The notes beneath the pieces were generated by a model, which worked only from the letters and a program-made list of their open reading frames with translations, was not told the DNA's origin and made no database searches. From Betaproteobacteria bacterium (GTDB taxonomy: Bacteria > Pseudomonadota > Gammaproteobacteria > Burkholderiales > JACQAP01): 64,000 nucleotides of DNA. The position numbers were made by a program, and so were the translations under genes. The stretch's first letter is position 1, and every line of letters starts with the position of its first letter. Location: assembly GCA_016194905.1 (NCBI GenBank), contig JACQAP010000034.1, positions 62,001-126,000 of the forward strand, read 5' to 3'. This document shows, piece after piece, positions 4,179-57,020 of this stretch.

Positions 4179-5438
4179 ATGCATTTGTCCGACCTGAAAA
4201 ACCTCCACGTAACGGAACTCGTGGAGATGGCAATCTCCAACGAGATCGAGAATGCCAACCGGATGCGCAAGCAGGACCTGATCTTCGCGCTGTTGAAGAA
4301 CCAGGCCAAGAAAGGCGAAAGCATATTCGGTGAAGGAACCCTGGAAGTCCTGCCCGACGGATTCGGATTCCTGCGATCGCCGGATACCTCGTACCTGGCC
4401 GGCCCCGACGACATTTACGTCAGCCCGTCGCAGATACGGCGATTCAACCTGCACACCGGCGATTCGATCGAGGGCGAGATCCGCACGCCAAAGGACGGCG
4501 AGCGCTATTTCGCGCTGGTAAAAGTCGACAAGGTCAATGCCGAGCCGCCCGAGAATTCCAAACACAAGATCCTGTTCGAAAACCTCACCCCGCTCTTCCC
4601 CACCGAGCAGTTCATCATGGAGCGGGACATCAAGTCCGAAGAAAACCTCACCGGCCGCATCATCGACATCATCGCCCCGATCGGCAAGGGCCAACGCGGC
4701 CTGCTGGTGTCCAGCCCGAAGAGCGGCAAGACGGTGATGCTGCAGCACATAGCGCATTCGATCGCGGCGAATTTTCCAGATGTCTATCTGATCGTGCTGC
4801 TGATCGACGAGCGTCCCGAGGAAGTGACGGAAATGCAACGCTCGGTCAAGGGTGAAGTGGTGTCCTCGACTTTCGACGAACCCGCCACCCGACACGTACA
4901 AGTGGCCGAGATGGTGCTGGAAAAAGCCAAGCGCCTGATCGAACACAAGAAGCACGTCGTCATTCTGCTGGATTCGATTACGCGTCTCGCGCGCGCCTAC
5001 AACACCGTCGTGCCGGCATCGGGCAAGGTGCTGACGGGCGGCGTGGACGCGAATGCGCTGCAGCGGCCGAAGCGTTTCTTCGGCGCCGCACGCAATATCG
5101 AGGAAGGCGGATCACTGACGATCATCGCCACCGCGCTGATCGACACCGGCTCGCGGATGGACGACGTGATCTACGAAGAATTCAAGGGCACCGGCAACAT
5201 GGAAATCCACCTTGACCGACGCATGGCCGAAAAGCGGATCTATCCTTCGATCAACGTCAACCGCTCCGGCACCCGGCGCGAGGAATTGCTGATCGAGAAG
5301 GAAATCCTGCAGAAGATCTGGGTGCTGCGGAAACTGCTTTACCCGATGGACGAACTTGAGGCTACGGAATTTCTGGTGGACAAGTTGCGGGGTACGAAGA
5401 ACAACGCTGACTTCTTTGACAGTATGCGTCGGGGCTAA
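4179..5438 (+). CDS. rho: Transcription termination factor Rho
   Basis: The 419-residue protein is full length. Its N-terminus ([11 protein letters not shown]) is the Rho helix bundle, followed by the cold-shock-like RNA-binding fold ([20 protein letters not shown]) at about residues 60-85. The ATPase core has the P-loop [11 protein letters not shown] near 183-193, the [13 protein letters not shown] segment and the secondary-site stretch [13 protein letters not shown]. It forms the hexameric RNA-dependent helicase that ends transcription. The C-terminal tail ends DFFDSMRRG. Its 3' coding end is repeated twice just downstream (see 5439-5760). Confidence 0.98.
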
Positions 5439-5458: not shown

Positions 5459-5508
5459 CGCGCGCTACCCGCAAACGGCCGGCTCCGCCGGTAACGAGTC
5501 CGCGCGCG
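5459..5508 (+). other. Structured element, rho copy 1
   Basis: About 20 bp after the rho stop codon an outer 7-bp stem (CGCGCGC at 5459-5465 with GCGCGCG at 5502-5508) encloses the block CCCGCAAACGG (5468-5478, itself a CCG-CAAA-CGG hairpin), a CCGGC-TCC-GCCGG hairpin (5479-5491) and the block TAACGAGTC (5492-5500). The layout resembles a three-way junction. The same layout recurs at 5625-5674, 10245-10290 and 10368-10413. Function is unknown to me; strand is given as that of the host gene. Confidence 0.7.
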
Positions 5509-5513
5509 ACCCC

Positions 5514-5604
5514 ATGGACGAATTGGAAGCGACGGAGTTCTTGGTCGATAAGCTGCGCGGGACCAAGAACAATGCGGATTTTTTTGACTCGATGCGCCGT
5601 GGTT
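5514..5604 (+). pseudogene. Second copy of the rho 3' coding end, recoded
   Basis: Starting at the ATG at 5514, 30 codons encode a peptide identical to the last 30 residues of Rho (MDELEATEF to DSMRRG) and end in a stop. Compared with the true rho end at 5346-5438, most codons differ by synonymous changes (for example CTT GAG GCT against TTG GAA GCG). It has no start region or promoter of its own that I can see. A plain duplication left in noncoding DNA should also collect amino-acid changes, so this tail probably came recently from a functional rho gene. Confidence 0.85.
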
Positions 5605-5624
5605 AGATAGGTACGGGATAAAAG

Positions 5625-5674
5625 CGCGCCCTGCCCGCAAACGGCCGGCGCCGCCGGTAACGAGTCCGGGCGCG
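5625..5674 (+). other. Structured element, rho copy 2
   Basis: The layout is the same as at 5459-5508: outer stem CGCGCCC (5625-5631) with GGGCGCG (5668-5674), CCCGCAAACGG, a CCGGC-GCC-GCCGG hairpin and TAACGAGTC. One outer-stem pair is G-C in copy 1 (5464/5503) and C-G here (5630/5669), a compensatory change that supports a real stem. It follows the stop codon of the recoded rho tail by about 20 bp. Confidence 0.7.
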
Positions 5675-5679
5675 ACCCA

Positions 5680-5760
5680 ATGGACGAGATTGAAGCTACG
5701 GAATTTCTGGCGCACAGGTTGCGGTGTGCGAAAAAAAGCTTATTCAGCTTAGGTACTTAG
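5680..5760 (+). pseudogene. Third, degraded copy of the rho 3' coding end
   Basis: From the ATG at 5680 the sequence starts like the Rho tail (MDEIEATEFLAHRLR) and then diverges (CAKKSLFSLGT, stop at 5758-5760). Its codons match the true rho end (GCT ACG GAA TTT CTG) much better than the recoded middle copy does, so it is probably a displaced and decaying native end. No structured element follows it. Confidence 0.7.
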
Positions 5761-9806: not shown

Positions 9807-10205
9807 ATGTCCAATAACGAAACCTCCCGCGTTCGCATCGACAAATGGCTTTGGGCGGCCCGCTTCTATAAAACCCGCAGTCTGGCGGCGGATGCAGTGG
9901 AGGGTGGCAAAGTGCAGGCCAACGGCGAACGCGTGAAACCGGCAAAGGTGCTCAAGGCCGGGGACATGCTCGCCATCCGCAACGGACATTTCACCTGGCA
10001 GATCACGGTGCTTGCATTGAGCGAGCGCCGCGGTTCCGCCACCGAAGCGTCCAAGCTGTATTCCGAATCCGATCAGAGCCGGAGGGAGCGCGAGGAGAAG
10101 AGTGCGCTGCTCAAGATCGAACGCCAGTCGAATCCGTTTCCCGGAGGGCGGCCCACCAAGAAGGCGCGCCGCCAGATCATCAAATTCACGCGGGAGCAAA
10201 ACTAA
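9807..10205 (+). CDS. hslR: S4-domain heat-shock protein Hsp15
   Basis: The 132-residue protein begins MSNNETSRVRIDKWLWAARF, the S4 RNA-binding motif of HslR, which recycles stalled 50S subunits carrying nascent chains. I chose the ATG at 9807 because the conserved RIDKWLW follows directly and a GCAGG site precedes it. The basic tail (GGRPTKKARRQII) is typical, but the last residues KFTREQN are supplied by a 123-bp repeat unit; the probable original ending RFMQDND lies 246 bp downstream. Confidence 0.93.
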   Translation: MSNNETSRVRIDKWLWAARFYKTRSLAADAVEGGKVQANGERVKPAKVLKAGDMLAIRNGHFTWQITVLALSERRGSATEASKLYSESDQSRREREEKSALLKIERQSNPFPGGRPTKKARRQIIKFTREQN

Positions 10206-10410
10206 CAGCTGCGACCAAGTCATATTCCCCGGTGCGGCGCGCTGGCGGCCGTTCCCGCAAACGGGCCTGCGGCTAACGAGTCACGGCCGCGCCGCCAGAT
10301 CATCAAATTCACACGGGAGCAAAACTAACAGCTGCGACCAAGTCATATTCCCCGGTGCGGCGCGCTGGCGGCCGTTCCCGCAAACGGGCCTGCGGCTAAC
10401 GAGTCACGGC
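10165..10410 (+). repeat. Two tandem 123-bp units spanning the hslR 3' end
   Basis: Units at 10165-10287 and 10288-10410 differ at one base (CACGCGGG against CACACGGG). Each unit holds the hslR tail ending in TAA, a short spacer and one structured element. The first 41 bp of unit 1 are the functional end of hslR, so the element provides the gene's present C-terminus. Confidence 0.9.
10245..10290 (+). other. Structured element, hslR copy 1
   Basis: Outer stem GCGGCCGT (10245-10252) pairs perfectly with ACGGCCGC (10283-10290). Inside are CCCGCAAACGGG (a CCCG-CAAA-CGGG hairpin), a short GCC-TGC-GGC hairpin and TAACGAGTC (10274-10282). The inner blocks match the rho elements while the outer stem is different in sequence yet still paired. 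Confidence 0.7.
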
Positions 10411-10413
10411 CGC
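10368..10413 (+). other. Structured element, hslR copy 2
   Basis: This is an exact repeat of the element at 10245-10290, shifted by 123 bp as part of the second tandem unit. Confidence 0.7.
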
Positions 10414-10451
10414 GCCGCCAGATCATTCGCTTCATGCAGGACAACGATTGA
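10411..10451 (+). pseudogene. Displaced alternative 3' end of hslR
   Basis: The third repeat begins with the same 16 bases (CGCGCCGCCAGATCAT) and then diverges, encoding RRQIIRFMQDND and a TGA stop instead of RRQIIKFTREQN. The RF-x-x-x-D/N ending is closer to what I recall of HslR C-termini elsewhere, so this is probably the original end, pushed downstream by the inserted units. Confidence 0.65.
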
Positions 10452-10616
10452 GTCTTGACGAGCGAAACACCATTTTCCGCAAAGCAACATTTTTCTCGAC
10501 AAGTCTCAAAACGCGGGCGTACACTGCGCCCTCCTTTCCGCCACCGTCAGAGAATGCTCAAGACATTCGCCGGTGGCGTTGCCGTTCCAGATGTTCCCGA
10601 GTGAGGAGATGCTCAG
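10452..10616 (+). promoter_or_regulatory. Leader region of phaA
   Basis: This spacer after the repeat block contains no gene. It should hold the phaA promoter; TTGACG near 10454 is a possible -35 box but no convincing -10 box follows at the right distance. A GAGTGAGGAG ribosome site precedes the phaA ATG. Confidence 0.35.
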
Positions 10617-11795: not shown

Positions 11796-11807
11796 AGACA
11801 AAATCTG

Positions 11808-11967
11808 GAACCACGGAGGACACGGAGATCACGGAGGAAAGGTCAGGAACTGAAGTGAGCCAATGGGATGCAAGGTGGCCATCGCTATCGATTGGATACT
11901 CCGTCGATCTTCCCTTGTCCAGGTAGTCTTCAGCTCTCGAATTTCTCCGTGCCCTCCGTGGTTCAAG
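11808..11967. repeat. Period-9 inverted-arm element 1 (ACGGAG type)
   Basis: The left arm has CCACGGAGG, CACGGAGAT and CACGGAGG in 9-bp steps; the right arm at about 11944-11967 carries the reverse complement (CTCCGTGCCCTCCGTGG). The element fills the gap between phaA and bktB. Confidence 0.85.
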
Positions 11968-11994
11968 AATTGGAATCCGAACTGGAGAAAAGCA

Positions 11995-18210: not shown

Positions 18211-18217
18211 AGATCAT

Positions 18218-18367
18218 GAACCACGGAGGGCACGGAGAACAACGAATGGAGATAAAAAACGAACAACGGTCGGACGATTGCCTGAAGCTAACCATATTCC
18301 TGCCCATTTCCCGCTACATTTTCGAACTTTCTATTTAATGCATTCCTCCGTGTTCTCCGTGGTTCGG
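18218..18367. repeat. Period-9 inverted-arm element 2 (ACGGAG type)
   Basis: GAACCACGGAGGGCACGGAG at the left and CTCCGTGTTCTCCGTGGTTC at the right; located between the M48 protease gene and phhB. Confidence 0.85.
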
Positions 18368-20925: not shown

Positions 20926-21089
20926 ATTTGTGTGCGACGGGTTTTACTCCAGCTCTTCGGCGCCGGTAGTGCAAGTCTATCAACCGGAAACACTTTTTTG
21001 GCTCACCGCCGGATTGGCACCGCTATTGCTTTGATAGCGTGCAGACGGAGAATGGTCTTGCTGCCCGAAAGCAGCATGATCCGGTAGGG

Positions 21090-21182
21090 ACACTAGGGTT
21101 CCGACCCGAAAGGGTGACTGGTCCGAGAGTGGCCCGGCCTCATGATGAGGCTCCACGGAGGGATAAAAGCCCGGGAGAGCGA
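21090..21182 (+). promoter_or_regulatory. Guanidine-I (ykkC) riboswitch 1
   Basis: The conserved blocks of the guanidine-I aptamer occur in order: CTAGGGTTCCG, ACTGGTCCGAGAG and CACGGAGGGATAAAAGCCCG, then GGAGA. In this class guanidinium binding switches expression on. The aptamer ends 44 bp before the start of a periplasmic binding protein gene. A second copy lies at 56682-56782 on the other strand. Confidence 0.95.
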
Positions 21183-54678: not shown

Positions 54679-54706
54679 CAAGTCCCTCTGAAGGAAAACC
54701 TTAGAT

Positions 54707-54899
54707 CCTGAACCACGGAGAGCACGGAGGACACGGAGAACACAGAGGAAAACAGGAAAGAGGGAGAAATGAGTTTGTTCCCCGGTAGGTGGCAGTAGCA
54801 ATCGAAAGGTCCGGTATCGAGAGGCAACCAGATGCATAGACATTTATCGTTCATCGACATGGTCTTCTCCGTGTCCTCCGTGCTCTCCGTGATTCAGGA
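54707..54899. repeat. Period-9 inverted-arm element 9 (ACGGAG type)
   Basis: TCCTGAACCACGGAGAGCAC at the left is mirrored by CTCCGTGCTCTCCGTGATTC at the right. It lies between the ABC ATPase gene and the deiminase genes inside the guanidine operon. Confidence 0.87.
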
Positions 54900-56681: not shown

Positions 56682-56782
56682 GGCCTCCCGGGCTTTTATC
56701 CCTCCGTGGAGCCCCGCGTGATCAGGCGGGGCCGTCGGCTCTCGGACCAGTCGGCCCTCGCGAGCCCGGAACCCTAGCCGAC
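56682..56782 (-). promoter_or_regulatory. Guanidine-I (ykkC) riboswitch 2
   Basis: On the minus strand the aptamer blocks appear in order: CTAGGGTTCCG, GACTGGTCCGAGAG and CCACGGAGGGATAAAAGCCC, then GGGAGG. The variable stem GCCCCGCCTGATCACGCGGGGC lies between the second and third blocks. About 108 bp of leader separates it from the permease start. Confidence 0.95.
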
Positions 56783-57020
56783 AACGACAAGAAGCGCTGC
56801 GCAGATCGCTCCTCTCGCTTTACTGCTTTGCAATCCGTGTGCCACCCAGGGAAAGGGGCGTCGTTCGGGGATGAATCAGAAAATTCGGGAGAAGAATGCC
56901 TCGGAGTGAAGCATCAAGATGGGGCAATGCACCGGGGCGGTGCGAAAGATCAAGGATAGTACATAGGAAAAACGCTCATAGCAGTTGCACTCTGAGCCTC
57001 TTCTCTGAGTTGTTGGCTTT
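56783..57020. other. Spacer between riboswitch 2 and the SIR2-like gene
   Basis: No gene is visible. The promoter of the guanidine operon must lie here, reading leftwards, but no clear -35/-10 pair could be fixed. Confidence 0.4.

Follow-up and report, generated by a model that had tools for sequence, protein, structure and literature searches.

A short hairpin element between duplicated gene ends at hslR and rho, and a possible route for the exchange of gene ends between related bacteria

Background

The gene hslR of a Betaproteobacteria bacterium (assembly GCA_016194905.1; genome G000 below) runs at its 3' end into a tandemly repeated 123-bp unit, beyond which a further, dissimilar version of the same gene end is found. 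This raises the question of where the present C-terminus of the protein came from, and what part the short hairpin carried by each unit, which we term element E, might have had in placing it there. We addressed this by analysing the 64,000-nucleotide stretch of contig JACQAP010000034.1 that contains the locus (hereafter the window, with positions counted from its first nucleotide) together with related genomes and other loci that carry the element.

Results and Discussion

The repeated unit supplies the present end of HslR

The hslR array is made up of the following features:

9807-10205, + strand: hslR (Hsp15-like S4 protein), the last 25 bases of which (10181-10205) come from unit 1
10165-10287, + strand: unit 1, with the hslR 3' end (...RRQIIKFTREQN and stop), a spacer and the hairpin element
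10254-10282, + strand: hairpin element core of unit 1
10288-10410, + strand: unit 2, with one silent mismatch relative to unit 1
10377-10405, + strand: hairpin element core of unit 2
10411-10451, + strand: older hslR 3' end (...RRQIIRFMQDND and stop), joined to the native 3' flank

The hslR product has a Pfam S4 match above its cut-off and scores 117.7 bits against the NCBIfam Hsp15 model, under the cut-off of 148. The tandem repeat noted in a preliminary description of this DNA is real: the two 123-bp units are 99% identical (Tandem Repeats Finder score 517) and are distinguished by a single G/A mismatch at 10190/10313, which on direct reading is silent (ACG/ACA, both Thr). Each unit comprises roughly 12 codons of the hslR 3' end with their stop, followed by a spacer and a single copy of E. 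Read in frame, the unit ends in RRQIIKFTREQN and the third copy in RRQIIRFMQDND, each followed by a stop codon. As had also been described, all three copies begin with 16 common bases, those of the third copy being 10411-10426. With two mismatches allowed, CGCGCCGCCAGATCAT occurs three times in the window, every time inside the hslR array, and a count of three was reached in 0 of 100 shuffles. Over the 25 positions that follow the common 16 bases, the unit and the third copy agree at 13 and differ at 12 (counted by hand), and their stop codons coincide; hence, their homology extends past the 16 bases. The suggestion that these bases are an insertion target is accordingly not upheld, as they belong to a longer duplicated gene end, of which they are the portion without differences. 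At the other loci described below no common 16-base target was seen, the duplicated stretch being in each case the gene's own end.

The surroundings of the third copy identify the older ending. The flank that follows it aligns to the flank downstream of hslR in two congeners, G002 and G003, with scores of 73 and 83 (shuffled maxima 10.0 and 11.5), and hslR in both ends in RFTRDTD, with no unit at this place. The third copy is thus the ending in its native surroundings, and it is separated from the gene body by the units. This agrees with the preliminary description, in which the present C-terminus KFTREQN was held to be supplied by the repeated unit, and the probable original ending RFMQDND to persist downstream as a third copy. 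A survey of HslR in relatives (60 genomes searched, 41 with a match; 30 loci fetched, with 27 readable endings including the window's own) found KFTREQN at the end of none of the 26 other readable loci. The unit's ending has the usual length of the HslR tail and the usual position of the phenylalanine, with KF or RF as in many relatives, which indicates that KFTREQN is another version of HslR's own end. The proposal that the element changes the end of a host protein therefore stands insofar as the unit supplies that end, and falls insofar as the ending is an HslR homologue and not made from the element's own sequence.

Among 31 genomes searched, the full-length unit was found at this locus only. 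Neither a plasmid collection nor a phage collection contained a match to the two units, and we rejected an origin from either on this ground. Likewise, derivation of the unit spacer from the native hslR flank was rejected, since its homology to the compared hslR flanks is unsupported (P 0.83, 0.96 and 0.30).

Structure and distribution of the hairpin element

Element E is a short double-stem hairpin that consists in order of an outer stem, CCCGCAAACGG, an inner hairpin, TAACGWGTC and the other side of the outer stem; in the hslR unit it reads CCCGCAAACGG-GCC-TGC-GGC-TAACGAGTC. In the 133 sequences whose cores are 33 nt long, the motif does not vary whereas the stems covary: the inner stem is paired in 97% and the outer stem, in the best of nine registers, in 92% of cells, against shuffled means of 76% and 57%, respectively. 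Copies of E sometimes occur in inverted pairs.

A search with the strict core pattern gave 10 matches in this genome. Of 200 genomes searched from the order, 10 have it, with 0 matches to the reversed pattern, as does one of 369 drawn from the class, namely this one. The named carriers among the matches listed are mostly Betaproteobacteria (e.g., Gallionella and Sideroxydans), and some titles on metagenome bins (Chitinophaga, a Bacillota, Bordetella) look misassigned. A looser pattern, for which some overlapping readings are counted twice, gave 15 cores in G000, 14 in G001, 10 in G002, 8 in G003, 28 in G028 and 52 in G074; its reversed control also matched, four times in G000, once each in G001, G002 and G148, three times in G048 and twice in G031.

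No description of the element was found among the open PubMed Central papers listed by our searches, and strings of 11-12 bases from it retrieved no open PubMed Central paper that, judged by title, concerns such an element. Rfam has no gathering-level match on the hslR or the rho array: the sole match at 10100-10500 is to a snoRNA (E-value 4.9, far under its gathering score), and five element loci gave no match at an E-value of up to 1. Given the lack of a gathering-level match, the identification of E with a known RNA family was rejected.

A second array at rho shows silent divergence

A second array in the same window contains three rho 3' ends, with one element between each neighbouring pair:

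4179-5438, + strand: rho, whose current 3' end (type A) begins at 5341
5468-5500, + strand: element core between the first and second rho ends
5509-5606, + strand: second rho 3' end (type B), with the same amino acids as the first
5634-5666, + strand: element core between the second and third rho ends
5675-5735, + strand: third rho end, decayed and closer to type A

In each of the congeners G002 and G003 an element separates two rho ends, and G001, of the same genus, has a single rho end followed by a truncated element. The first two ends in G000 differ at 21 of 31 codons (stop included), all silently and with no replacement, and the two ends in G003 show 20 silent and no replacement differences, also in 31 codons with the stop; the rho bodies of these two genomes differ silently at a mean of 5.9 and a maximum of 11 positions per 31 codons. 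Identity among G000, G002 and G003 is 91-94% in the rho bodies and drops to 73-90% over the last 120 bases. An excess of codon differences over saturation (20/30, P 0.07; 19/30, P 0.14) is no more than suggested. The two ends of G002 show one silent and four replacement differences in 28 codons, which looks more like decay than import.

In a tree of the rho ends, built on 93 bases and with bootstrap values that are not settled, the type-B ends (the second of G000, the first of G002 and the second of G003) follow the body tree, and the type-A ends (the first of G000 and of G003) cluster together, near G001 with weak support. As the type-B ends track the body tree, the native rho end of G003 is the downstream one. 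Types A and B encode identical amino acids, which argues against a distant donor; the end in G001 differs from them at 3 of 31. A search for a donor of the type-A end in 369 genomes of the class, a list without the other members of the genus, gave as the best match outside this genome 80% over 75 bases, which is uninformative. Codon adaptation, relative to the codon use of this window, is 0.55-0.68 for the array ends, 0.72 for the G001 end, 0.80 for the G000 rho body and 0.90 for rho in G031, a genome with no rho array. A repeated rho end also occurs in another family: in G052 (L116, C15) it is present three times downstream of the gene, accompanied by another hairpin, one without the core motif.

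Duplicated ends of other genes and their common orientation

Both 5' and 3' gene ends are found duplicated beside E. Gene names in what follows, except for rho, hslR, hslO and thiolase, were read from translations and not from a search. Duplicated 5' ends belong to an SDR gene in G002 and to MalT-like and CoA-ligase-like genes in G001, the CoA-ligase-like end being duplicated also in G148 and CP070775. Further cases are thioredoxin (L166), ddl (G074 and G028), an unnamed gene (L156), the hslR 5' end in G001 and rho in G028. What is duplicated changes from locus to locus, being another gene end each time and mostly longer than at hslR.

We compared 14 arrays from about 10 loci, hand-picked for a recognisable gene end; three loci with a repeat and no clear gene (L021, L180 and L239) were omitted, and so was the duplicated hslR 5' end in G001 with its inverted pair of elements. 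All share one order, namely gene body, current end, hairpin and old end, and one hairpin orientation: E is forward in 14/14, with the gene body on its CCCGC side, and is thus directed away from it. In 13 of these arrays the longer open frame agrees with this placement of the body; at L166 it is on the opposite side (304 vs 418 nt), and this array was placed by eye from the translation.

We screened the 192 elements for which 120 nt or more of sequence was available to either side. Flanking direct repeats with a score of 27 or above were found at 20 of them, as against 2 of 958 swapped controls. The other 172 elements have no flanking repeat at this score, and two or more of the 20 seem to be repeats of some other kind. 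In 15 of the 20 the second copy starts 7-11 nt past the core, the search having begun at 7, and the first copy ends 8 to 232 nt ahead of it.

The degree and kind of divergence between copies varies among loci. In G001 the MalT-like copies show 14 silent and one replacement differences in 22 codons and the CoA-ligase-like copies 17 and 3, respectively, in 31. The thioredoxin copies (L166) show 13 silent and 8 replacement differences in 31 codons, which again looks more like decay than import. The SDR copies of G002 are nearly identical, as are two copies of about 156 nt in G148 that surround a 44-nt insert (lengths by hand). By eye, the right arm of the G148 element (L015, 1342-1697) is complementary to a host GTCGCG within the duplicated target, so part of its outer stem seems to be host sequence. 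The near-purely silent divergence at rho and at two other loci in the genus suggests that both copies have probably served as working ends there. Import of an end from a close relative, or long use of both ends, fits this pattern better than decay in place.

Candidate enzymes and comparison with known systems

Among RAYT and DUF559 candidates we found no mobilising enzyme linked to E. There are four Y1_Tnp matches in this genome, and the exact core piece is present in none of the four fetched loci; an element lies near one of the eight DUF559 loci checked out of 15 matches. Both were rejected as the enzyme of E for want of a consistent link. At one locus of G003 (L091, C371, 1336-1852), a DUF559 endonuclease-like gene with flanking inverted repeats adjoins an element copy.

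The arrays resemble integron cassettes in having a coding piece followed by a structured site, in tandem units, and apparently also in having the newer unit beside the expressed body. An integron integrase scores over the curated cut-off in G000-G003 but not in G028, G074 and G148, which are also element carriers; E is common in G028 and G074. The integrase of G000 lies at C19:264616-265557, with counterparts in G001, G002 and G003. Near it, no attC-like site was found with a strict pattern in 35 kb or with a looser one within 8 kb. As the attC boxes RYYYAAC and GTTRRRY are both present in 0 of 224 elements on either strand, we rejected E as an integron attC site.

A likeness in outcome is offered by gene hybrids of fungal mitochondria. 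One study attributes those of Glomus atp6, atp9, cox2 and nad3 and of Allomyces atp6 to mobile endonuclease ORFs, and describes an inserted element that brings a new expressed C-terminus and strands the native end downstream, with DNA that diverges far more than the protein, i.e., silently (PMC3630166). Mostly silent divergence together with a new end on the body is likewise seen at rho in G000 and G003 and at the two G001 loci, though not at rho in G002. The present arrays differ in that a short hairpin is involved, on a bacterial chromosome, and at 5' as well as 3' gene ends. Moreover, there is no endonuclease gene in the 123-bp unit, and the E arrays are therefore not members of the mitochondrial mobile-ORF hybrids.

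REP palindromes and their dimers, of the GTAG and CGTC super-families, are characterised in another study as short, dispersed and bacterial, and often in inverted pairs (PMC3733652). Element E is similarly a short dispersed chromosomal palindrome for which inverted pairs are seen; however, its conserved part is an internal loop with covarying stems, and copies of gene ends lie beside it. Within 14 nt outside the core, GTAG is found at 1 and CTAC at 4 of 181 33-nt cores (repeat loci included), CGTC at 19 to the right and 1 to the left, and GACG at 12 to the left and 6 to the right. The GTAG and CGTC tags are not a constant feature of E.

The double-hairpin elements of fungal and algal mitochondria, which are GC-rich and thought to be mobile, share their double-hairpin form with E. 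Rickettsial palindromic elements are short palindromes that can sit inside reading frames; unlike these, the copies of E at hslR and rho follow the stop codon and add no element peptide. In one gene of this genome, presumably QueG (L083, G000:C15 ~107069), an open frame runs through an element that has a reverse partner; this copy appears to lie in frame and to add an extra stretch to the protein.

A mobile hairpin and its alternatives

Taken alone the hslR array is modest, but a general process is suggested once the array at rho and the common orientation are taken into account. The explanation that we favour, with confidence evenly balanced, is a mobile hairpin whose insertions duplicate gene ends, which are then exchanged between relatives. 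E would insert beside a gene end and leave a long duplication of that end, by virtue of which the gene would survive. The arrays would subsequently recombine between related strains or species, and a diverged working end from a relative could become the expressed one. At hslR, a unit of gene end plus E would have been joined to the gene somewhere in the stretch of 16 identical bases, so providing the C-terminus from then on, and would have undergone a single tandem duplication. From comparison of sequences we infer the mobility of E, the duplication on insertion (clearest in G148), the exchange or import of ends and the later tandem copying at hslR. The sharp step at hslR, where 16 identical bases are followed by 12 differences in 25, is more easily reconciled with a recombination joint than with even decay. 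The tandem pair is consistent with one unit having been duplicated later, with the repeated insertion raised in the preliminary description as a further possibility. Mobility has as its counter-evidence that no donor and no mobilising enzyme were found, and a foreign end would hardly be expected to encode the same amino acids, as types A and B do, when G001 of the same genus differs at 3 of 31.

More tentatively, we consider a homing process for bacterial gene ends in which the element carries no gene. A hairpin some 40 bases long may travel with a silently recoded end of a host gene, re-enter the same gene in relatives, replace its working end and strand the old one; the same ends (rho and CoA-ligase-like) are found in more than one lineage, and silent divergence to codon saturation might prevent the copies from being lost by recombination.

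The strongest alternative, which we nevertheless regard as rather unlikely, has no import: E inserts near a gene end and duplicates a target of up to about 160 bp, after which the copy on the body stays functional and the other decays. The nearly identical copies that surround the insert in G148, the nearly identical SDR copies of G002 and the predominance of replacements at rho in G002 speak for it, and the hslR locus taken by itself is compatible with it. It sits poorly, however, with the near-purely silent differences at rho in G000 and G003 and at the MalT-like and CoA-ligase-like loci, and with the abrupt fall at hslR from 16 identical bases to 52% identity.

It is also conceivable, but decidedly improbable, that E is an old palindrome fixed downstream of genes, and that slippage or template switching at the hairpin duplicates the adjoining gene end. 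Such a process would account for tandem units and for the rho-end array of G052 with its different hairpin. Yet at rho in G002 and G003, as well as in G148, the element is present only between the copies and not after the last one; the arrays examined have a single orientation and involve both 5' and 3' gene ends; and the silent divergence would be left unexplained.

The possibility that the element carried its own coding sequence and replaced the C-terminus by insertion at a 16-base target is very remote: the unit does supply the present ending, but this is homologous to HslR endings (RFTRDTD in G002 and G003), and other loci, with no common 16-base target, duplicate their own gene end. An assembly artefact at hslR, where the array is known from one assembly only, is hardly credible given that its copies are not all identical and that similar arrays with diverged copies occur at rho in other assemblies.

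If the mobile-hairpin explanation is true, tiny palindromes, which are usually treated as repeats or regulatory hairpins, can allow related bacteria to swap the ends of essential genes, rho among them, while the genes stay intact. To our knowledge, a comparable route to changed protein tails is otherwise known only from fungal mitochondria. The succession of body, new end, hairpin and old end in one orientation would then be a testable signature, and the stranded ends would preserve earlier states of the genes.

Other features of the window

The window also contains two Guanidine-I riboswitches, at 21082-21179 (+ strand) and 56683-56788 (- strand). Another dispersed short repeat, of the kind CCACGGAGGACACGGAGA, is present in both orientations at 11801-11828, 11944-11971, 18211-18241, 54703-54751 and 54862-54899.
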